A program made the position numbers and the translations under genes. DNA of 26,393 nt from a virus, in IMG/VR virus record IMGVR_UViG_3300044941_000526, positions 1 to 26,393 of that record. One strand, given 5' to 3'. This document shows, piece by piece, positions 3,343 through 26,393 of the stretch (position 1 is its first letter; each line of letters opens with the position of its first letter). The notes beneath the pieces are model-generated. The model searched no databases. It saw nothing but the letters and a program-made list of their open reading frames with translations, and was not told the DNA's origin.

Positions 3343-6300
3343 CTATATAATAGCGATTCCCGCGTATCCACGCCCGACGGCGGCGGAAAGCTGGTACACA
3401 TTCACCAGCACGCTGCTTTGTGCCGAACCGAAATCCGTCACTTGCTGCGCGGCAGTGTAGATGGTTGAAGGCGTTGTCAGGCCGATGATGGTGCGTTTCA
3501 GCGTCACCCCCTGCATGATTTCCACCTCATAGCGTTCGGCCTCCTCGGAAAGCGGAATATCCACCGCGTCCCGCCAATCCCCACCGATGCGCGTGCGCCG
3601 CTTCCAGGTGATGGTGAGATCACCACCCACGTTTCTGCTGCCCTCGATATGCACGGGGGAATAAGGTTTCAGAGCCTTTGCCGCATAGGTGAAATCCTGC
3701 GCGGTGGTTGCCCCGAGTGTGGAGCCAACGGTCACTGGCTTGAACTTCTTACTGATACCCCAGCCAGAGGATGCCATCAGTTCCCGCGCAAGGGCGTTTG
3801 TCAGCATGATGAAGCGTTCACCCGCTATGTGACTACCTACAGCCCATTCCGTACCCAGCCGCCCCCGCAGCAAGCCAGACAAACGATATTTATTCGTATC
3901 GAGCAGTGTTGCGGTTTGGAACTGAATGACTTCATCGCCGATGACGCACACATTCGCGCCATTCAGCACAGCTATATCGGTCACGCTCTGCAGCTGGCCG
4001 AAGGTGAGTAACACATCAATGGTTGTGCTGTTATCCCAAGTGTACACCGTCCCCGCAGGGATGATATTCAGCACCGCGCCGATGGTTGCCTGCGCCGTGA
4101 GTGTTTGCATCAGGGCATAGTTGGAGCCGCCATCATCGGAGCGATACACCGCCGAACCCGCCCAGCCATCGCCCAAGCCCACCACGCCATAGCGCAAATA
4201 CGCATCCGTCACCGCATCGGTGGGGAATGCAGGCAAGTCGAGCAGTTCCAGCCGCGTGGCGGAAATACTCGTCGGCGGCTGAATGTTGGGCGTGCCAGTG
4301 CCTGCGGGATTATAGAAATCATAGGATGACACATCTTCGGCCACCGCTGTGAGCTCCTGCATCCCGTTTCGCACCAGCTTGGTGGAGTTAATCCGCATCA
4401 CATACGACGCACCATCCTTCGTGATGGTAATCACATCGGTCGGCTCAAGTAGCGCATATTTCGGCGGCACGGTGAACTGGTACTGCACGCACCCCACCCA
4501 CACATTGTAGAGCGTCACATCCGCCACCACCTTGGCTTCCTGATCCGAAAGCACAATCGGCAGATTCACCGTGGCATAATCCACCGCTTTGACGGTTTGC
4601 CGCTGCGAGGATTGCGTGCCAGCCTGATAATCCGCCGTGCGGTTGAGATAAATCACATCCACCTGGCGCGGCAATTCCAGTTCCTGCGTGCGGGTGATGG
4701 TGAAGGTATCAATCGCATCATCACGCGGCACCAGCTCCGAGAAATCCAGCGTGGTGTTGGAAACCTTGCCGCGCTTGATAAACTTCAGCAGCCCGTCCGA
4801 TTCCACCATGTCGAAGAAATACGCCGAAGCTAATTGCTCCAAACAGGCACGCACCGTTTGCCTGTTACTCACGATAAAGCCCGACACAATATCTGTCAGG
4901 CGGCTGGTGTCATACATGGTGTTGTCGTAACCCACTTTTTTGAGCAGGTCGGCGACGATCTGGCCGAGGCTCGAAAGCCCCAGCTTGCCTTGCACCCAAT
5001 GGCCTGTTTTCCAGTTGCTGCCATCCGCCCATACCGAGCCGAGGTCAGGGAAAAACGGGAACGGCCTTGCATCCCATGTCCACACGAACTTGCGCGGCAC
5101 AAAGTTGGCTTCCAGCGCATTTTGGGCGTTGAGATAGTCAATCGAGGCATCGAGCGCGGTGCGTTGTGCGAGAAAGTCCACCCGAGAGCGCGAACCCCGA
5201 GGATAGAAACTTTCTGACGAGTCAGGGTCAATGAATACGTTAGGCTGGTTGGCACACCCATCCACAGAGGGAAAGCCAATTTCCGAAAACCACACGGGTT
5301 TCATCTTGGCTGTCCACGCCGTTGTCGAGGCATTGGGGTTGGTATGCGTGCTATTCCACCAGTTCTTTACGTTCTTCCAAGCAAAAGTTGCGCCTGAATA
5401 GAAAGTTTTGGTGGTGCGTGTGCCGTCCCAGTAATAATCCCAGCCCTCATCTTTCGTCCAGCCATCATAGACCTTTTGGTAGTCGATCTGCGTTTGCGGC
5501 AAATCAGGCGTGAGCGGGAAATAGCAATCAATCGCCACCACGTCGATATTAGAATCTGACCAGAGCGGATCGAGGTGATACCAGCCGTTTACCGAATGAT
5601 ATTCGCTCCAATCGCCGCCATACATCACCTTTACGCCTGCACCCACGGCAGATTTCACCGAAGCAGCGAGGCTTTTTAACTGAGTAACCGCAGGGAAAAC
5701 ACCTGCGCTGCTCATATAGGTGGTTAAGCCCACCAGTTCCGAGCCGATCATGAAAGCGTCGATATTGTTCTTCAGCAGCACGCCGCCCACATTCAGGCTG
5801 GCATACCAGTTAATAAAGGCATTATAGCCATTGGTGCGGGTAAAAAAGTTTGCCGCATCCGTAGCATTGGTGGGCGTAATTCTACCGCGCCACGGCTTTG
5901 GTTGTGGCGTGATGGTGTCCACTTGCACCATCGGGTAGAACAGCACCTTATAGCCACGGCTTTTCAGTTCCTGACACAGCCGCACGATGCTTTTGTCCGT
6001 TGGCGTGCCGCCATAAGTGGGCGAACCATCGGGAAAAGTTAAAATCACATGTGCATTATTGCGAGTAAACCCTGCCACCGCCCAGTCATCAGGTGCAACC
6101 CGTGCGCCTTGGCTGTTAAACTCCGCCGCTGGCTTGATAATGCTCACCGCAGGGTCAACGGAATCCGAAAACCAGTTCACCACCACCGACACCCATTCCA
6201 CATTGGGCAGGTTGGCTTTGAGGTTATCCAGTGCCACCAACACATCGGCTTTATTATTGAGGTTGTTCAGGTTCATTTTGGTGACTTTGCCACCTTGCAC

Positions 6301-7062
6301 GAAATTGCCTGATACATCCTGCTGGCCGCTGGTTTTCTCCTGCACAACCGTGTCATAGACAAACTCGCCAGCACCAGGAATAATGGTGATGTCCTTGATT
6401 TTATCCTCAAGGTCGAAGGGCTTTTTCAGCGTGCGGCGCACCTCGAAGGTAAAGTTCGGAATGCGGTTGCCGAAATCCCCCAGCGGGAAATCCTTAATCA
6501 CCACATAGGCCGTGCCGCGATAGGCTGGCGTTTGCCCTGCGGGATAGAAGGATGACATAAACGTGTCAGGCAGCTGCGTTTCGTCACCGAGATAGAGCGA
6601 ATAGCTGCCAGCCGTCAGGTCAAGCTGCTTTGCATCCGCCCATACGCGCACCACTTCGCTGATTGCGCCTTCACAAATCGCAACTGCAAGGCTGGCCGTA
6701 TAGGTGTAAGTTGTGGTGGTGGTTTCCACGCTTCCGCCACCGCCGCCACCTTTACCACCGCCCGAGGATTGCGTTGTGGTGGTCACATGCTCCTGAATCG
6801 GGCGCGACCAGATCACGTTTCCCGCAATACGGGCGTTGCCATAAACCACGGGTATCGACTTGCCATAGGTGGAAGCCTGCACCATCAAATCGGTCAGGCG
6901 CGAGCCTTCCTGATTGATGCGTGCCTTGCTGCCGAAAATGGAACGGTCAATAAAGCCGCCCAAATATCCGCCCACACCACCCGCCAACGCTGCGGCAAAT
7001 GCACCCGCGCCGATAGATGATGCCGCAGAACTGGCGGCGGCTGCTAGAACGATGGCTGCCAT
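3343..7062 (-). CDS. GTA-type host-specificity/tail hub protein with TIM-barrel domain
   Basis: This is a 1239-residue baseplate hub and host-contact protein, about the length of the Rhodobacter GTA orfg15 product. Residues 1-55 are an Ala/Gly-rich hydrophobic N-terminus (GAFAAALAGGVGGYLGGFID). A 'GKSIPVVYGNARIAGNVIWS' segment follows near residue 70, then a Gly-rich linker (GGGKGGGGGGS). The GTA TIM-barrel domain spans about 285-725, with DVVAIDCYFPL near 510 and a glycosidase-like FSEIGFPSVDGCANQP near 590-605. The phage tail-3 domain follows (about 725-890, with YFFDMVESDGLLKFIKRG). The C-terminal third is beta-rich. By analogy to GTA it caps the tail and may cleave or bind cell-surface glycan. 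Its start overlaps the NlpC/P60 gene by 19 nt. Confidence 0.93.
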   Translation of the reverse strand: MAAIVLAAAASSAASSIGAGAFAAALAGGVGGYLGGFIDRSIFGSKARINQEGSRLTDLMVQASTYGKSIPVVYGNARIAGNVIWSRPIQEHVTTTTQSSGGGKGGGGGGSVETTTTTYTYTASLAVAICEGAISEVVRVWADAKQLDLTAGSYSLYLGDETQLPDTFMSSFYPAGQTPAYRGTAYVVIKDFPLGDFGNRIPNFTFEVRRTLKKPFDLEDKIKDITIIPGAGEFVYDTVVQEKTSGQQDVSGNFVQGGKVTKMNLNNLNNKADVLVALDNLKANLPNVEWVSVVVNWFSDSVDPAVSIIKPAAEFNSQGARVAPDDWAVAGFTRNNAHVILTFPDGSPTYGGTPTDKSIVRLCQELKSRGYKVLFYPMVQVDTITPQPKPWRGRITPTNATDAANFFTRTNGYNAFINWYASLNVGGVLLKNNIDAFMIGSELVGLTTYMSSAGVFPAVTQLKSLAASVKSAVGAGVKVMYGGDWSEYHSVNGWYHLDPLWSDSNIDVVAIDCYFPLTPDLPQTQIDYQKVYDGWTKDEGWDYYWDGTRTTKTFYSGATFAWKNVKNWWNSTHTNPNASTTAWTAKMKPVWFSEIGFPSVDGCANQPNVFIDPDSSESFYPRGSRSRVDFLAQRTALDASIDYLNAQNALEANFVPRKFVWTWDARPFPFFPDLGSVWADGSNWKTGHWVQGKLGLSSLGQIVADLLKKVGYDNTMYDTSRLTDIVSGFIVSNRQTVRACLEQLASAYFFDMVESDGLLKFIKRGKVSNTTLDFSELVPRDDAIDTFTITRTQELELPRQVDVIYLNRTADYQAGTQSSQRQTVKAVDYATVNLPIVLSDQEAKVVADVTLYNVWVGCVQYQFTVPPKYALLEPTDVITITKDGASYVMRINSTKLVRNGMQELTAVAEDVSSYDFYNPAGTGTPNIQPPTSISATRLELLDLPAFPTDAVTDAYLRYGVVGLGDGWAGSAVYRSDDGGSNYALMQTLTAQATIGAVLNIIPAGTVYTWDNSTTIDVLLTFGQLQSVTDIAVLNGANVCVIGDEVIQFQTATLLDTNKYRLSGLLRGRLGTEWAVGSHIAGERFIMLTNALARELMASSGWGISKKFKPVTVGSTLGATTAQDFTYAAKALKPYSPVHIEGSRNVGGDLTITWKRRTRIGGDWRDAVDIPLSEEAERYEVEIMQGVTLKRTIIGLTTPSTIYTAAQQVTDFGSAQSSVLVNVYQLSAAVGRGYAGIAII

Positions 7063-18709: not shown

Positions 18710-20398
18710 TTACCTCGATAGCCAGTTGTCCATGCGTGGAATCCACGCTTGGTTTGGTTGGTTTTTGCTTTCTTGATCCGTTTGCTCAGGCTCGATGCGG
18801 GGCGCGTTCTCCAAATCCTCGGCGAGCTTGGCGAGGTTTGGATTGAGTAGCTTGAAGGCCGCCAGCGCATACACCGTGCAGTCCAGCACCTCATTTCGGG
18901 CGCGGGTTTTAATCCATTCCCGTTTTGAAACACCTTTTGCAAAGCGCGTGACTTGCTTCTCACCCGTCAGCTGCAAGAAATACTCGCGGTCACGTTCCAG
19001 CGGAAAATGGAAGTAACCCGCCCCAGGCTCGGTGAGCCGAAGGCGGCTGAAGATGACTTCCTTCGCCGTGTCCGTGCCGATAGGATAGAGCCGCAGCTTG
19101 TAGCGGTTGTTCTTGCTCGGCCGTCCCACCAGAGGTTTCGCCGTTTGGCTTATGCCCTTGATAGCGAACACGCCGCGCACCGCACGCGCACCACAAAACT
19201 CATACACCGCTTGCGTATGGTGACCGCCAGAGTCCACGCACACGCAGGCGATATTCAGATTCACGCCCAGCTTGCTGCGGATAGGTTGCAGCAGAAACGC
19301 ATCCAGTTCCTGCCACACCATGCTTTGCGCTGGATCACCGTAAAACACGCGGTAATCCAGTGACCAGCATTCTTCACCCAAGCCCCAGCCTTTGACTTCC
19401 ACCTCAAGGCGGTCGCCTTGCACGTCCACCCCAGCGGTGACCAGCACCACGGGTTCGGGCGCATCATTGCCCCAGCTTTCCTTGCGCTGGAGAAGCACAT
19501 CCGCCTCGACGCTTTCGCCGCTTTCCTCCCACGTTTCCCCGAGCGAGGTATTCACCCATGTTTTCAGGGTTTCGGGCAGCTTCTTGGCTTTCAAAAACTC
19601 CGCCACCATCTGCGCGAATGTCACCCACGGGCTGTAAAGCTCGTTGAGGTGAAAGCCGACCACGCCGTTAAACGGGGCTTCGGCAATCCATTCGCCTTTG
19701 AGCAGCATGTCGGCCTTGTCAGCATCACCGATGATGCAGCCGTTATGCTCGCAGATATAGGCAGCCGTTTCAGGCTTGTGCTTTTCGTCACCGTCCTTCT
19801 GGTCGCCTTGCTCCCATTTGACTTGCTGCCATTTCAGGGTTTGCTTCTCACCACACTGAGGGCAAGGAACATAAAACCGCCGCTGATCGCTTTGCTCAAA
19901 AGCAGATTCAATTCGGCTTGCCCCTTTGATGGTCGGGGTGGAGGTCAACAGAATCTTGCGATTCCAGAAAGTCGTGGTGCGCTTTTTTGCCAAGCTCACG
20001 GGGTCACCTTCCGTGCCAGCCGACACAGGGTAGCGATCCACTTCATCACACAGCACCAGCCGAATCGGGCGTGATGCCAGTGATGCAGGCGAATTCGCCC
20101 CCGCCATCGTGATGTGGCCACCAGGGAAGCGTTTATGCAGTAGCGTGTTGCCCGAATCCCGAGTGCGCGGATCTTTCACCAATCCTTTCAAAACGTAAGT
20201 GTCACGCAGCATGGGGGCGAAGCGGTCTTTGCTCCATGCTTCCGCCATCTCAAGCGTCGGCTGTAACAGTAGAATCGGCGATGGGTCGAGATGGACGTTG
20301 TAGCCGATGATGTTGTTAATAATCTCCGTTTTACCCACCTGCGCCGATGACATGATGACCACCATCTCGGTGCGGGGGTCGTTCACTGCATCCATCAT
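18710..20398 (-). CDS. Terminase large subunit (GpA family), N-terminus cut off by an in-frame stop
   Basis: The first usable ATG (20396-20398) gives 562 residues. Motifs are a Walker A-type MSSAQVGKTE near residue 16-25, a Walker B-type RLVLCDEVDRYP near 110, a CPQCGEKQ zinc-ribbon-like segment and CEHNGC. The nuclease blocks VTAGVDVQGDRLEVEVKGWG, CVDSGGHHTQAVYEFCGA and RNEVLDCTVYALAAFKLL follow. The enzyme cuts concatemers and drives DNA into the prohead. Family members begin about 30 residues earlier. Those residues are readable upstream in frame (20399-20494, including FLSSEASAEPGKWHTDRAPY) but are broken by TAA at 20471-20473. This ORF as written lacks the conserved APYQRE adenine-binding region, so activity is doubtful unless the stop is bypassed or is a sequencing error. 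Confidence 0.85.
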   Translation of the reverse strand: MMDAVNDPRTEMVVIMSSAQVGKTEIINNIIGYNVHLDPSPILLLQPTLEMAEAWSKDRFAPMLRDTYVLKGLVKDPRTRDSGNTLLHKRFPGGHITMAGANSPASLASRPIRLVLCDEVDRYPVSAGTEGDPVSLAKKRTTTFWNRKILLTSTPTIKGASRIESAFEQSDQRRFYVPCPQCGEKQTLKWQQVKWEQGDQKDGDEKHKPETAAYICEHNGCIIGDADKADMLLKGEWIAEAPFNGVVGFHLNELYSPWVTFAQMVAEFLKAKKLPETLKTWVNTSLGETWEESGESVEADVLLQRKESWGNDAPEPVVLVTAGVDVQGDRLEVEVKGWGLGEECWSLDYRVFYGDPAQSMVWQELDAFLLQPIRSKLGVNLNIACVCVDSGGHHTQAVYEFCGARAVRGVFAIKGISQTAKPLVGRPSKNNRYKLRLYPIGTDTAKEVIFSRLRLTEPGAGYFHFPLERDREYFLQLTGEKQVTRFAKGVSKREWIKTRARNEVLDCTVYALAAFKLLNPNLAKLAEDLENAPRIEPEQTDQESKNQPNQAWIPRMDNWLSR

Positions 20399-20494
20399 TT
20401 CCCGCTGATACGGGGCGCGGTCGGTGTGCCATTTGCCAGGTTCTGCGCTGGCTTCGCTGCTTAGAAAGCGTTATTCATCCGCCCACTGGCTCAC
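20399..20494 (-). pseudogene. Ancestral N-terminal end of the large terminase, interrupted by TAA
   Basis: In the terminase frame a GTG at 20494-20492 has GAGG 6 nt upstream and reads VSQWADE, then TAA (20473-20471), then RFLSSEASAEPGKWHTDRAP and YQRE joining the ATG at 20398. The GpA family has an aromatic residue or His at the stop position (W-A-D-x-Y/H-R). A single change from TAC or TAT to TAA explains it. No ATG, GTG or TTG lies in frame between the TAA and 20398. Confidence 0.75.
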
Positions 20495-21020
20495 CTTCAG
20501 CCTCGGCGGGGGCTTCAAGTGTTTCAGTGCGCGTTTCAACGCCTTCTGGCCTGATTTGTTGCTCTGGGTCATAGCGTGCGAGTTCCGTTAATGCGTCGCA
20601 CACCAGATCGCGCAGGCTCTGTTCGATCGCGTAAAACTCCTTGAGATGAAGCACCAGGTGCGCCGCACGGGTTGGTACAGCGAGCATTCGTGCGCGAAAG
20701 GTGGCCAGCAAACTTGCCCAAAGCTCCTCCGCTTCATCTGCGGAAATGAGCCTTGCACGCATCATATCCAGTTCCATTTGCGCTCTATCGGCTTGCAGCT
20801 TTAGAAGCCTGCCGCGTTCGGCGTACATATCCACCGTGCCAGTGTCCTTGCCAAAAGCACGGGCTTGCAGGTAGCCGATATAACCTTGAACACATCCCAC
20901 CAGATCGTATTTTCCCTTTTCTGGTTTCGGGATGATGCCGTCACGAGCGAGCTGCTGCACGCGCCGTTCCGTCAAGTTCAAGAACCGCGCAATGACGGCG
21001 ACTTTGTATAAAAGTTGCAT
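20475..21020 (-). CDS. Terminase small subunit (Nu1 family)
   Basis: This 181-residue protein begins with a winged-helix DNA-binding domain: residues 6-33 contain KVAVIARFLNLTERRVQQLA and then RDGIIPKPEKGKYDL. A helical oligomerisation region (ERGRLLKLQADRAQMELDMM, then ARLISADEAEELW) and an acidic C-terminal tail (EAPAEAEGEP) follow. This is the Nu1 design of lambda-type phages, in which the small subunit recognises the packaging (cos) site. The gene begins 10 nt after the methyltransferase gene, and its 3' end overlaps the apparent GTG start of the large subunit by 20 nt. Confidence 0.92.
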   Translation of the reverse strand: MQLLYKVAVIARFLNLTERRVQQLARDGIIPKPEKGKYDLVGCVQGYIGYLQARAFGKDTGTVDMYAERGRLLKLQADRAQMELDMMRARLISADEAEELWASLLATFRARMLAVPTRAAHLVLHLKEFYAIEQSLRDLVCDALTELARYDPEQQIRPEGVETRTETLEAPAEAEGEPVGG

Positions 21021-21030
21021 GATATTTTTC

Positions 21031-21678
21031 TCATTTAGTCACGATCCACCCAGCGAAATCGCCGAAGCGGAACCATTGCACTGCATCGTCGCCCAGCATG
21101 GCGGGGTCGAGTGGTCGTTGAACACCTGATAGACTCAGTTCTTTTGCGATCACGCTTTCCGCATCCACACCTGCGGCAATCTTTCCTGCCAATGTCAGCC
21201 GCCAGAACACGGTGGCTTCATAGCCCGTGGCCGCTTCGCATTTATCGACAATCAGCAGCGCACCACCTGGCTTGATGAGGGATTTCAGATAGTCGATGAA
21301 CTCCTGCCGTTTTCCGACAGGAAGAAACATCAACACCAAATAGCAAATCGCCAAATCATAAGGCTGGAAGCGATAATCAAGCGCGTCGATCTGCACCAAC
21401 TCGCCAGGGGCTTTATACCTCGCGCACATTTCCGCGCTGGCTTCAATGCCCACCAGCTTGGCTTTGCGCTCAACTATCGTTTCTTCAATCGCTTGGCCGA
21501 TGTTGCCTGTGGACGCGCCGATGTCATACACCAGCCCATTTCTGGGGATGTAATGACGGGCGATGTGCGCCACCGCGCCAGTTACCAAATCATACCAAGG
21601 CAGTTGCTCGCGCACATGCCTATCGAAGCCCGAGGCCACTTTCGTGTTCTCGAACGTCCACTCGCGGGGAATATCCAT
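21031..21678 (-). CDS. CmoA-like class I SAM methyltransferase
   Basis: The start at 21676-21678 gives 215 residues (MDIPREWTFENTKVASGFDR). Motif I is VYDIGASTGNIG (about residues 60-71). An acidic end of strand beta-2 follows (LVGIEAS), then DALDY, the strand LAICYLVLMFLP and the post-II loop IKPGGALLIVDK. The layout, including an N-terminal FDxHVREQLPWYD and a C-terminal AKELSLSGVQRPLD..WFRFGDFAGW, resembles tRNA carboxy-SAM synthase CmoA. By eye, however, the Arg that CmoA uses to hold the carboxylate is not in place. A related methyltransferase sits next to terminase genes in many alphaproteobacterial prophages as I recall. The substrate is unknown. The gene follows the HAD gene by 5 nt. 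Confidence 0.82.
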   Translation of the reverse strand: MDIPREWTFENTKVASGFDRHVREQLPWYDLVTGAVAHIARHYIPRNGLVYDIGASTGNIGQAIEETIVERKAKLVGIEASAEMCARYKAPGELVQIDALDYRFQPYDLAICYLVLMFLPVGKRQEFIDYLKSLIKPGGALLIVDKCEAATGYEATVFWRLTLAGKIAAGVDAESVIAKELSLSGVQRPLDPAMLGDDAVQWFRFGDFAGWIVTK

Positions 21679-21683
21679 GATGT

Positions 21684-22097
21684 TTACTCGGGTAATGCGT
21701 CCCAACGCTCACCTGGTTCGATCTTCACTGACCGAATGCCATAGCGTGCATACATTGCGTGGGTTCTTGGGTTGCTTTCGATAGCGAGGAATGTTGCCCC
21801 GCCGTGTTTGGGCAGCACATGCTCCGCAAGCATCCGTTCCTTTGCCAACGGGGGTGTAAGCCCGTAAACATTGAAATGCGCTTCCTGGGGTAACCAGGCG
21901 GTTTTTGCGCTAATGCTCGCAAGCGTTGCTTCTCGGTGCATCGCAGGTCGCGCTGTCATCATGATGACGTGATGCGGCCTGATTAACTCCACCAGCCAGC
22001 GACGATATTGCTCTGCCTCGATCTGTTTTATGAAAGGGCGGCGTTTATCATCGCTGTTTTCCACCAGCGTGTAGTTAAGGTCGAGCAAGAGTATCAT
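21684..22097 (-). CDS. Phage HAD-superfamily protein with DxN motif I
   Basis: This 137-residue protein has an ATGA overlap with the upstream gene (22094-22097). HAD motif I is LLLDLNYTL with nucleophile Asp6, but the usual Asp at +2 is Asn8. Motif II Thr is in IMMTARP (about residue 48). A candidate motif III Lys lies in PLAKERM, and motif IV appears as FLAIESNPRTHAMYARYG, with Glu-Ser in place of the acidic pair. The family looks like small phage phosphatase or nucleotide-handling HADs. Loss of the +2 Asp normally weakens phosphatase activity, so this may act as a phosphotransferase, binding protein or modified enzyme; this is inference. Confidence 0.75.
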   Translation of the reverse strand: MILLLDLNYTLVENSDDKRRPFIKQIEAEQYRRWLVELIRPHHVIMMTARPAMHREATLASISAKTAWLPQEAHFNVYGLTPPLAKERMLAEHVLPKHGGATFLAIESNPRTHAMYARYGIRSVKIEPGERWDALPE

Positions 22098-23608
22098 AGC
22101 ACAAGTCCCGTTCGCTCGGAGAAAGCGCGTTTTGCATCAATTACACGCTCCATCCTGCTGCCATCAGGATAGGGTAAATCGAATTCAAACTCGAGTGCTG
22201 CGTTCAACTTTTTGTAATCAATCGGTTTCGGCCTCGCACAAACCGCCTGCACGTTGCTGTTGCTTTCCGATACCTGGACGATCTCGAAAAACTCTTTGAA
22301 CAGGCAATAGAACTCGTTCTGGCTATGATACTTCTGCACCTTCGGGCTGCTGGTCATATCGCCCAGCGTGATGCCTGATTCATATTCCAGCAGGAAAGCA
22401 CGCCCCGTCGATTGCCGTTCGTTCAGGGAATTATAGCCTTTCAGCTGGCGAATATTGATGTGGTTGATACTTGAGGCCACCGCATAGAGTTTCGTTTGCG
22501 GCGAGCAGAGCGCGGCGCACAGGCAAATGATGTGCTTGCGATCTTCCTCAAACGGCACGCTATTCAGCACGCTGGATATGAACACCGAATTGTAGGGGAT
22601 TTTGCGATCACCCACATCGGCAAGGAACTCATCCACCACGCGGAGCGATTCCGCCTTGTCAATTTCCTCGGCTTCATTCACGCGATACGGTTCAAACGGA
22701 GTGACGCGCACACCGATGGAACGCAGTATCTGCGTTTCATGCAAATGCCCCGCGCCGAAATCCAGCACCGACTTGCCGTGTTCTTTCATCCACTTGTCGC
22801 GGTTCTTTGGCTCGGTCACATCAAAATCCTTTGACGTGCTGTTGCCAGCCACCGCGAAAATAAACCCGCGCCCCAGATCCTCGCGCACGCGGCGCAGGCG
22901 GCGGAACGAATTATAGCGCAGCAGGTCGCGGTAACGATTATGAATGTCAAAATCCATCGAGAGCAGGTTCAACATGGCATCGGCCAGCCGCGCTTCGTCC
23001 TCGGTTACCAACACCACCGCCACATCAGAGCGTTTGGATTCCGCCTGCATCTGTAAGCGGCCTATGCCGTTCACCACGCGCAGGTCTTTGGTGGCAACCA
23101 CGGGCATCAGCACGCCTTTGAGGTAAAGCGTTTTGGAAATGCTAGTGGCATAGGTGATCCAGCGGCCTTTGTTCGCTTTGAGCAACGGCGCAATCGGCAT
23201 CACCTGCGCCTTCAGGCACGGGTAGAACTCGGGCGTGTCAGGCGTTTTGTCAGGAATTGCCGCCGCAATCGCCTTCACATCCACCCGCGCCAGCGCATCG
23301 GTGATATTCTCAGGCGTGTCTTTCGGGCGCAAATCATTGGTGGCGCGGTTAAAGGCGACGTTCACGCCCTTGCGCTCTTCCAAATCCATCGCCCTGGTGA
23401 ACTCCACTGGCACTTGGCGAACGCCCAGCCGCTTCGCCACATGATGCCGCTGGTGACCAGAGATGATTTCGCCGTCGGGCGTGGCATAGATGGGAAGCAG
23501 AAAGCCCAGCTTGCGAAGCGACAGTTCAATCAAATCGAGCCGCCGAGGATCTGCGGTGCGCGGGTTGTAGGTGGACGGGTTCAGGCTATCAATGTCGATT
23601 AGTTTCAT
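22094..23608 (-). CDS. ParB-like domain / methyltransferase-like fusion
   Basis: The start at 23606-23608 overlaps the preceding stop as ATGA and gives 504 residues (MKLIDIDSLNPSTYNPRTAD). Residues 1-90 are a ParB/sulfiredoxin-fold domain with the phosphate-binding motif EIISGHQRHHVAKRLGVRQV near 47-66. A middle region (about 110-270) includes GRWITYATSISKTLYLKGVL and VVNGIGRLQMQAESK. From about 275 to 460 there is a Rossmann methyltransferase-like domain with motif I VLDFGAGHLHETQILRSIGV and FEPYR at the end of strand 2, then VFISSVLNSVPF in the motif IV area. The ParB-fold module may act as a CTP/ATP-dependent switch or nuclease. The methyl acceptor is unknown. Confidence 0.8.
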   Translation of the reverse strand: MKLIDIDSLNPSTYNPRTADPRRLDLIELSLRKLGFLLPIYATPDGEIISGHQRHHVAKRLGVRQVPVEFTRAMDLEERKGVNVAFNRATNDLRPKDTPENITDALARVDVKAIAAAIPDKTPDTPEFYPCLKAQVMPIAPLLKANKGRWITYATSISKTLYLKGVLMPVVATKDLRVVNGIGRLQMQAESKRSDVAVVLVTEDEARLADAMLNLLSMDFDIHNRYRDLLRYNSFRRLRRVREDLGRGFIFAVAGNSTSKDFDVTEPKNRDKWMKEHGKSVLDFGAGHLHETQILRSIGVRVTPFEPYRVNEAEEIDKAESLRVVDEFLADVGDRKIPYNSVFISSVLNSVPFEEDRKHIICLCAALCSPQTKLYAVASSINHINIRQLKGYNSLNERQSTGRAFLLEYESGITLGDMTSSPKVQKYHSQNEFYCLFKEFFEIVQVSESNSNVQAVCARPKPIDYKKLNAALEFEFDLPYPDGSRMERVIDAKRAFSERTGLVL

Positions 23609-24198
23609 AAGCCGAGCCTCTTTTTCAGTTCGTGGACAATGGCTTCCTTGTCGAAGCCAACTTCTTGTTTCACTTCCTCGATCCATGCGAGGTATCGTTC
23701 GCGGGGAATCTCAAAGCTGTAGGGTCCGATGGTTGCGCGGGTGTCGGCTTCGTCGATGGGCTTTTCCTCGTCGTCATCAATGCCGTCGGTCAGCAGGCTT
23801 TCGAGGCTTTTCTGCAGCTGCTCCAATTCCGCTGCTTCAAAGCCAAGCACCGTTTTGTCGAACGACATGTTATCGAGATCGGCCAATTCGAGGGCGAGCA
23901 TTTCGTTATCCCACTGCGCTTCCTCGCCTGTGCGGTTGTCGGCAATGCGATACGCCTTCACCTGTTCGGCGGACAAACCCTCCGCCACATGCACAGGCAC
24001 TTTCTTCAAGCCCAGCTTCTGCGCTGCCTGATAGCGTGTATGCCCCGCGATGATGACCATTTCGGAATCCACGACAATCGGCTGGCGGAATCCGAACTCC
24101 TTTATGGAGGCCGCCACTTTGTCCACGGCGTGCGCGGTAATCCTTGGGTTTCGTGCGTATGGCACGAGCTTCTTCAGGTCGAGTAATTCGACTTTCAT
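23605..24198 (-). CDS. ParB-like N-terminal-domain protein
   Basis: The start at 24196-24198 has GGAG 7 nt upstream, while an ATG 12 nt further up has none; the product has 197 residues. It begins MKVELLDLKKLVPYARNPRI, continues ASIKEFGFRQPIVVDSEMVI, and has the ParB box IIAGHTRYQAAQKLGLKKVP (about residues 49-68). LSAEQVKAYRIADNRTGE follows, typical of phage ParB-like proteins next to DNA-modification or packaging genes. The C-terminal 70 residues are acidic and helical. It is the first minus-strand gene of the operon and overlaps the next by 4 nt. It is unlikely to be a partition protein, because no ParA partner or central helix-turn-helix domain is visible. Confidence 0.87.
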   Translation of the reverse strand: MKVELLDLKKLVPYARNPRITAHAVDKVAASIKEFGFRQPIVVDSEMVIIAGHTRYQAAQKLGLKKVPVHVAEGLSAEQVKAYRIADNRTGEEAQWDNEMLALELADLDNMSFDKTVLGFEAAELEQLQKSLESLLTDGIDDDEEKPIDEADTRATIGPYSFEIPRERYLAWIEEVKQEVGFDKEAIVHELKKRLGL

Positions 24199-25502: not shown

Positions 25503-26393
25503 ATGGCAGCGGAAAAGAAACAGGCAGAATTTGCGAAATGGATGGGTCCATTACTTGATGCTTTGCGTCAACTTGGGCATACAGGAACCCCCAGAGAAGT
25601 TTCTGATTTGATCGCCAAGAATATTGGGCTTCCTGACTCTAAAAAAGAAGAGCTTTTAGAAAGTGGAACACCAAAATTTCATAATCAAGTTTGTTGGGGA
25701 AGGCAGTATTTAGTTTGGGAAGGTCTGCTTAGTTCAGAATTGCGCGGCATATGGAAACTGACAGATAAGGGCATACCTACCACTCTAACAGAAGATCAAA
25801 GCAGAGAAATTATAAAAAAGTGGGTTACACTTCACGCTCAATTACGCAAGCAATCAGCAAAAGATACAACTCAAAAAGCAACTGCTCCATCAAAAAATGA
25901 ATCTGATGAAGAAGAGGGCGTTGTCCAAGGATATCGTGAAGAGCTTCTCAACTTATTACAATCCTTAAGCCCCGAAGGTTTTGAGAACTTCTGTAAATAT
26001 CTTCTCAGAGTATATGGTTTCGAAAATGTGTCTGTAACCCCCGTAGGTAAGGATGGCGGAATAGATGGATATGGCATTCTACAACTTAACCCATTTGTAA
26101 GCTTCAAAGTTATCTTTCAATGCAAGCGCTATCAAGGAACTGTTTCCAGAGCGCAAGTTGGAGATCTCAGAAACGCGATGATTGGCAGAGCCGACAAAGG
26201 AATAATGATTACAACAGGAATTTTCTCCGAAGATGCAAAGAGAGAGGCAAGCCGTGAAGGTGCTCCACCTATTGAGCTAATTGATGGGGAGTTATTGATG
26301 GATATGCTTGAGGAGAAAGAGGTCGGATTAAGACCTCAGAAAACCTTCGATATTGATTATACATTTTTTGATCCTTTCTTACCTAAAAAATGA
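25503..26393 (+). CDS. Mrr-type modification-dependent restriction endonuclease
   Basis: This is a complete 296-residue protein ending at the window edge. Residues about 8-95 are an Mrr N-terminal winged-helix domain (LGHTGTPREVSDLIAKNIGL, CWGRQYLVWEGLL, GIWKLTDKG). A charged linker rich in Lys, Ser and Glu spans about 112-140. Residues about 150-270 are the Mrr catalytic domain: SPEGFENFCKYLL with Glu161, GKDGGIDGYG with Asp188, and FQCKRY with Gln206 and Lys208, the D-x-QxK metal site of the PD-(D/E)XK fold. Mrr proteins cleave DNA carrying foreign methylation. It may be host defence beside the prophage or phage-borne exclusion. It is AT-rich compared with the late phage genes. Confidence 0.92.
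   Translation: MAAEKKQAEFAKWMGPLLDALRQLGHTGTPREVSDLIAKNIGLPDSKKEELLESGTPKFHNQVCWGRQYLVWEGLLSSELRGIWKLTDKGIPTTLTEDQSREIIKKWVTLHAQLRKQSAKDTTQKATAPSKNESDEEEGVVQGYREELLNLLQSLSPEGFENFCKYLLRVYGFENVSVTPVGKDGGIDGYGILQLNPFVSFKVIFQCKRYQGTVSRAQVGDLRNAMIGRADKGIMITTGIFSEDAKREASREGAPPIELIDGELLMDMLEEKEVGLRPQKTFDIDYTFFDPFLPKK

Follow-up and report, generated by a model that had tools for sequence, protein, structure and literature searches.

What are four enzymatic genes doing directly in front of the terminase genes of a virus? The question is raised by IMG/VR virus record IMGVR_UViG_3300044941_000526, and the window analysed here is that whole record, 26,393 bases long, with its late phage genes on the minus strand. 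In order of transcription the set comprises a ParB gene, a gene for a fusion of ParB with a methyltransferase (ParB-MT), a HAD gene and a gene for a CmoA-like methyltransferase (MT), and it precedes the genes for the small (TerS) and large (TerL) terminase subunits, all on the same strand. We propose that this cassette is probably a second version of the phage carboxy-S-adenosylmethionine (Cx-SAM) DNA-modification pathway, in which ParB-MT would replace CmoX as a non-homologous Cx-SAM-dependent transferase. An earlier sequence-only reading of this DNA had listed as possibilities modification of phage DNA before packaging, a nucleotide- or RNA-directed modification, and control of terminase loading by ParB-type CTP switching; the modification part of that list stands and may now be specified as a Cx-SAM variant, and the CTP part finds no support.

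In Synechococcus phage S-B43, Cx-SAM is synthesized by CmoA and used by CmoX to form 5-carboxymethylcytosine, to which the amide ligase CmoY attaches glycine (PMC12783734). CmoX is a homologue of the C5-methyltransferases (C5-MTases) with an SPPC motif and a residue, R350, that binds the Cx-SAM carboxylate (PMC12783734). ParB-domain genes are reported near S-B43-type pathways, with a role unknown, and neither ParB-MT nor HAD is described in the accessible part of that paper, which appeared in December 2025 (PMC12783734). The sequence-only reading knew of no described function for the whole set; the cassette resembles the published pathway. No description of ParB-MT in a carboxymethyl-transfer role was found in the literature searched, subscription papers and preprints lying outside the search.

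Results

Gene order of the cassette

The cassette and the terminase genes are as follows (aa, amino acids).

23605..24198, minus strand: ParB1, a stand-alone ParB/Srx-fold protein, 197 aa (Pfam ParB_N, 4e-10; phrog_620, 2.6e-52)
22094..23608, minus strand: ParB-MT fusion, 504 aa (phrog_5475, 3e-110, a family of unknown function)
21684..22097, minus strand: HAD protein, 137 aa (phrog_32036, a family of unknown function; AlphaFold2 (AF2) model; PDB fold match)
21031..21678, minus strand: CmoA-family protein, 215 aa, proposed Cx-SAM synthase (TIGR00740 CmoA, 5e-14; PDB 4gek)
20475..21020, minus strand: terminase small subunit TerS (phrog_57, 1.3e-27)
18710..20398, minus strand: terminase large subunit TerL, gpA type (Pfam GpA_ATPase, 7e-88; GpA_nuclease, 8e-95)

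The start of ParB-MT overlaps the stop of ParB as ATGA (23608), the junction of ParB-MT with HAD is likewise ATGA, the CmoA-like MT starts with the ATG at 21678, 5 nt after HAD, and TerS lies 10 nt beyond it. This confirms, at the place described, the four genes coupled by ATGA overlaps or gaps of 5-10 nt and leading into the terminase genes. The 530-aa open reading frame (ORF) listed for ParB-MT has its start placed too far upstream, the ATGA overlap at 23608 being the better start.

CmoX and ParB-MT as partners of CmoA

The CmoA scans of the collections used single proteins as queries. Because many loci had been retrieved with ParB-MT or HAD, the main exclusion counts were taken from the scan made with the window CmoA. 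CmoX, with SPPC and R350, was present in 37 of its 58 loci, 26 of which also carried CmoY; ParB-MT together with HAD was present in 12, and no locus held both this pair and CmoX. The other nine had neither transferase, several of them being short contigs. Furthermore, the C5-MTases found near ParB-MT all had the canonical Asn at the R350 position (13 of 13), and these CmoX-like matches were consequently rejected as CmoX and taken as ordinary C5-MTases; in loci without ParB-MT, SPPC and R350 were present in 39 of 42 C5-MTases.

In a CmoA tree the CmoX and ParB-MT partners interleave, and the well-supported branches cannot be reconciled with fewer than four changes of the CmoX label; this holds as well under strict labelling and after removal of several long-branch rows. 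The closest relatives of the window CmoA outside the cassette (54-58% identity) lie in operons ordered ParB-(CmoY)-CmoX-CmoA, and a KELSL.GVQRP-like motif is common to CmoX-partnered relatives and the window protein. In four CmoX operons examined (three viral contigs and Moraxella phage Mcat8), one small gene and then TerL follow; Mcat8 reads ParB-CmoX-CmoA-TerS-TerL, its CmoA being about 45% identical to that of the window and its CmoX, with SPPC and R350, 48% identical to SpCmoX. The complete genome of Gordonia phage Evaa holds the full four-gene cassette, and a profile search found neither CmoX nor CmoY in it, nor in the complete genome of Pseudomonas phage SM1, whose version of the cassette lacks HAD.

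In two further loci, Nostoc L102:8784-15680 and viral contig L371:5790-14184, CmoY-like ligases flank ParB-MT and there is no CmoX. In the known pathway the CmoY-type ligase acts on a carboxyl group (PMC12783734). The Nostoc locus has ParB-ParB-CmoA about 10 kb upstream of ParB-MT on the same strand, and TerL follows the ParB-MT region in the viral contig; in a survey of 293 genomes of the Nostoc order, this Nostoc genome was the only one with a full ParB-MT. Both cyanobacterial loci have three CmoY-like ligase genes around one ParB-MT, which suggests several different amide tailorings.

Staphylococcus phages (L171:4989-6688 and L173:5001-7519) have CmoA beside a C5-MTase without SPPC and R350, with GSPC and Gly instead; it is possibly another kind of Cx-SAM-using transferase.

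Distribution and conservation of the cassette

A search for relatives of ParB-MT matched 224 times in IMG/VR and found 74 loci among the GTDB species genomes. They came from Pseudomonadota, Verrucomicrobiota, Lentisphaerota, Bacteroidota, Bacillota, Thermodesulfobacteriota, Chloroflexota, Cyanobacteriota, Rhodothermota, Sumerlaeota and others. The cassette is spread over phages and prophages from some ten bacterial phyla, single assignments being open to error because many of these genomes are metagenome bins. Cultured phages of Gordonia, Pseudomonas and Aeromonas also carry relatives of ParB-MT.

Among loci with enough flank for each count, ParB-MT is immediately preceded by a ParB in 116 of 128 and has CmoA nearby in 78 of 80 (79 when Nostoc is counted), HAD is present in 67 of 80, and TerL follows within 6 kb in at least 72 of 93, a lower bound. 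HAD was found in no CmoX (R350) locus. Like CmoX, ParB-MT is thus found together with a phage CmoA, as a genomic association. Terminases of several families come after the cassette, and in SM1 cassette and terminase lie together, far from the portal. The counts for ParB, CmoA, HAD and TerL and the co-location with terminase make the whole cassette a conserved module; random association of the genes in other phages, which the sequence-only reading had named as evidence against itself, was not what the neighbourhood survey found.

That reading had also concluded from the close coupling that the cassette works at the time of packaging. The linkage to the terminase is real, but it need not mean a packaging role, because the neighbour of the proven pathway in S-B43 is a primase-helicase gene, and the 12.6 kb viewed there contains no terminase; moreover, a ParB-DNA methylase fusion in Streptococcus phage EJ-1 also uses the slot before the terminase, so that this position says little about packaging.

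A different gene order, ParB, CmoA, ParB, ParB-MT, was seen in two Chloroflexota loci (L072:7239-11530 and L073:7724-11509).

The proteins of the cassette

The CmoA-like protein scores 52.5 bits against TIGR00740, below the curated cut-off of 193.3 bits, and by that cut-off is a distant member of the CmoA family and not an equivalog. Its best PDB match is CmoA 4gek (1.3e-11); one profile included E. coli CmoA as a row, and the E-values of that profile for CmoA structures are therefore not independent evidence.

Partition ParBs carry a helix-turn-helix domain after ParB_N. A Pfam scan of the ParBs of the window found ParB_N only and no HTH_ParB. The motif GERR is replaced by GHTR in ParB1 and by GHQR in 243 of about 260 N domains of ParB-MT, and no ParA partner was seen among the window ORFs scanned, in a search that was not exhaustive. 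The combination that marks partition and CTPase-clamp ParBs (ParB_N with HTH_ParB, a GERR-type nucleotide motif and ParA) was thus not found in the cassette, and partition or CTP-switch control was rejected because HTH_ParB and the canonical motif are both missing.

ParB-MT is made of a ParB domain (residues 1-112), a degenerate second ParB-like domain (about 139-215) and a class I Rossmann methyltransferase domain (about 270-504). Domain 1 matched domain 2 in an hhalign profile comparison (probability 96.6, E 6.8e-10), and its order of helices and strands recurs in domain 2 of the AF2 model, which has a predicted local distance difference test score (pLDDT) of 91. The two ParB-bearing proteins that had been noticed are both real, but the ParB-like domains number three, since ParB-MT holds two of them. 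Among the PDB matches to the model, the ParB part resembles ParB-CTP structures, and the nearest solved folds of the methyltransferase domain are small-molecule methyltransferases.

An alignment of 39 diverse ParB-MT rows has many invariant columns; R231, R237, K423 and K426 are, on conservation grounds only, candidate basic residues for binding the carboxylate of Cx-SAM. ParB-MT carries no C5, N4 or N6 DNA-methyltransferase motif (no SPPC, NPPY or similar), and a plain DNA methylase of these types was consequently rejected; these rejections agree with the earlier view that the set fits neither partition nor a plain DNA methylase. CmoX is a C5-MTase with SPPC and R350, and ParB-MT has no PF00145 match in Pfam, no conserved PC motif in the alignment and neither of these features. 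CmoB is defined by its family profile and by Lys91, Tyr200 and Arg315; ParB-MT was compared with the profile and the PDB fold list alone, and it has no CmoB match in Pfam or NCBIfam, nor is CmoB among the PDB matches listed.

The HAD protein, which had been called unusual, was modelled with a pLDDT of 97, and its best structure match in the PDB is the 3'-phosphatase of T4 polynucleotide kinase (Pnkp; 5uj0, E 1.3e-6), so that it is better described as Pnkp-phosphatase-like; a PDB sequence search with the HAD profile gave nothing useful. The protein keeps the nucleophile D6, T48 and R50 of the T-x-R motif, K86, and E107 of the acidic motif IV, all invariant in 36 aligned rows. In contrast to T4 Pnkp, it has no kinase domain, and the acid/base Asp at +2 is replaced by N8 (Asn in 36 of 36 aligned rows, His in the HAD of Evaa); the DxD of the T4 type is thus not present, the match is one of fold, and a phosphatase role is putative.

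Other features of the window

The remaining late genes, all on the minus strand, encode gene transfer agent (GTA)-like tail proteins, a tape measure protein, a capsid protein and a lambda-type portal. The tail protein at 3343-7062 (minus strand) has a GTA TIM-barrel domain and an Rcc01698-like C-terminus, a combination typical of gene-transfer-agent-like phages of alphaproteobacteria. The TerL frame has a stop codon at 20471-20473 (minus strand), just upstream of the ATG at 20398, where nine relatives checked read through; either TerL of the window is shortened at its N-terminus or the stop base is an assembly error. Beyond the cassette, on the opposite strand, lies an Mrr-type restriction endonuclease gene (25503-26393, plus strand; Mrr_N and Mrr_cat). 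Mrr and other type IV enzymes cut modified DNA, and the position of this gene beside a putative modification cassette may be meaningful or fortuitous.

Discussion

In the pathway that we propose, the CmoA-like protein would convert SAM, with prephenate, to Cx-SAM, and ParB-MT, in the slot of CmoX, would transfer the carboxymethyl group to nucleic acid, most likely phage DNA. The ParB domains of ParB-MT and the separate ParB would place the transferase on DNA, and HAD, as a partner specific to ParB-MT, would perform a further tailoring or clean-up step, perhaps in the position that CmoY holds elsewhere. Gene order, its conservation, the folds, the exchange of partners, their mutual exclusion and the occurrence of CmoY-like ligases beside ParB-MT are observations; synthesis, transfer and DNA target we infer in part by analogy, as the window MT belongs to the CmoA family, and a phage CmoA that feeds a DNA carboxymethyltransferase is established (PMC12783734).

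The likeness to the S-B43-type pathway lies in the tight coupling, within one operon, of a transferase and a CmoA-family protein that is a proven or proposed Cx-SAM synthase, often with ParB nearby, in the common order ParB, transferase, CmoA, and in the several CmoX versions that precede TerL. The differences are that the cassette transferase is a ParB-ParB-like-Rossmann fusion without C5-MTase motif, SPPC or R350, and that in most loci a Pnkp-like HAD stands in place of CmoY. Judged by sequence, the cassette would work like the CmoA/CmoX pathway, but with a transferase that is neither CmoX by the motifs tested nor CmoB by profile. More tentatively, and with slightly less than an even chance of being right, ParB-MT (phrog_5475) may represent a new and widespread class of nucleic-acid carboxymethyltransferases unrelated to C5-MTases which, with HAD, makes a modification other than 5-carboxymethylcytosine, possibly on another base.

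Several observations weigh against this proposal. In E. coli CmoA the Cx-SAM carboxylate is held by a single residue, Arg199 (PMC4482062), whose position is occupied by Glu in the window CmoA; many cassette CmoAs have Arg there, and the group of the window has Glu or Asp. However, Glu is also present in CmoX-partnered relatives and in SpCmoA, a synthase of proven activity, so that the substitution, which by itself looked decisive, speaks neither for nor against function. Locus L004:3409-4370, with a ParB-MT of 89% identity, also has HAD, but CmoA is absent from its place between HAD and TerS; the CmoA of the host may be used, or the function may be lost. Conversely, L325:5388-6702 has HAD, CmoA and TerL with 5 kb upstream and no detected ParB-MT, other HAD-only loci being mostly cut off at the contig end. 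Some lineages (Vibrio, SM1, HJ05, Nostoc) have no HAD. Finally, the target of ParB-MT could possibly be RNA, a nucleotide or a small molecule, because its modelled fold is small-molecule-like, CmoB is not among the matches listed and a DNA-methyltransferase motif is lacking.

The alternative that survives best, although we consider it unlikely, is ordinary methylation, with the CmoA-like protein and ParB-MT as two plain SAM-dependent methyltransferases acting on phage DNA or RNA. The ParB-DNA methylase fusion (phrog_498) of phage EJ-1 is, like ParB-MT, a ParB fused to a methyltransferase in the same place before TerL, and such fusions are thought to methylate; the low CmoA score and the lost Arg199 point the same way. 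Nevertheless, the catalytic domain in EJ-1 is annotated as a DNA methylase and neither CmoA nor HAD is present in the stretch viewed, whereas ParB-MT has no such motif, its CmoA lineage is repeatedly partnered with CmoX, whose R350 binds the Cx-SAM carboxylate, and CmoY-like ligases flank it in the cyanobacterial loci.

Somewhat less probable still is an RNA or free-nucleotide target, that is, a change of the cmo5U kind in tRNA or a pool of modified dNTPs, with the proximity to terminase reflecting late-gene timing only. In bacteria CmoA is a tRNA-modification enzyme of the CmoA/CmoB cmo5U pathway, which the cassette resembles in a cofactor from the CmoA family and a non-C5 Rossmann transferase; furthermore, PHROG names the window MT a tRNA methyltransferase, and the fold of ParB-MT is of the small-molecule type. 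Against this stand the lack of a CmoB-family match in Pfam or NCBIfam, the ParB domains carried by ParB-MT, the place in a phage operon tightly linked to ParB-type domains and terminase, and the exchange in the same slot with CmoX, a DNA enzyme.

Packaging control, with ParBs as CTP switches that load terminase and a local modification at cos/pac that licenses cutting, is very improbable. In its favour, the link between cassette and terminase is kept across several TerL families, and even in SM1. Against it, the window ParBs lack HTH_ParB, most members lack GERR, no ParA was seen among the window ORFs scanned, both the CmoX version and ParB-DNA-methyltransferase fusions occupy the slot as well, and the equivalent chemistry of S-B43 has no terminase nearby in the stretch viewed.

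Conclusions

It was not until December 2025 that a carboxy-SAM route to DNA hypermodification was described, and that route rests on one transferase family (PMC12783734). If our proposal is true, a second, unrelated transferase would make Cx-SAM chemistry on nucleic acids more varied than reported, and PHROG families 5475 and 32036, both without an assigned function, would acquire one. The ParB and HAD partners would become testable, with Evaa (four genes) and SM1 (no HAD) existing as phages, and a new DNA base modification would bear on escape from restriction.

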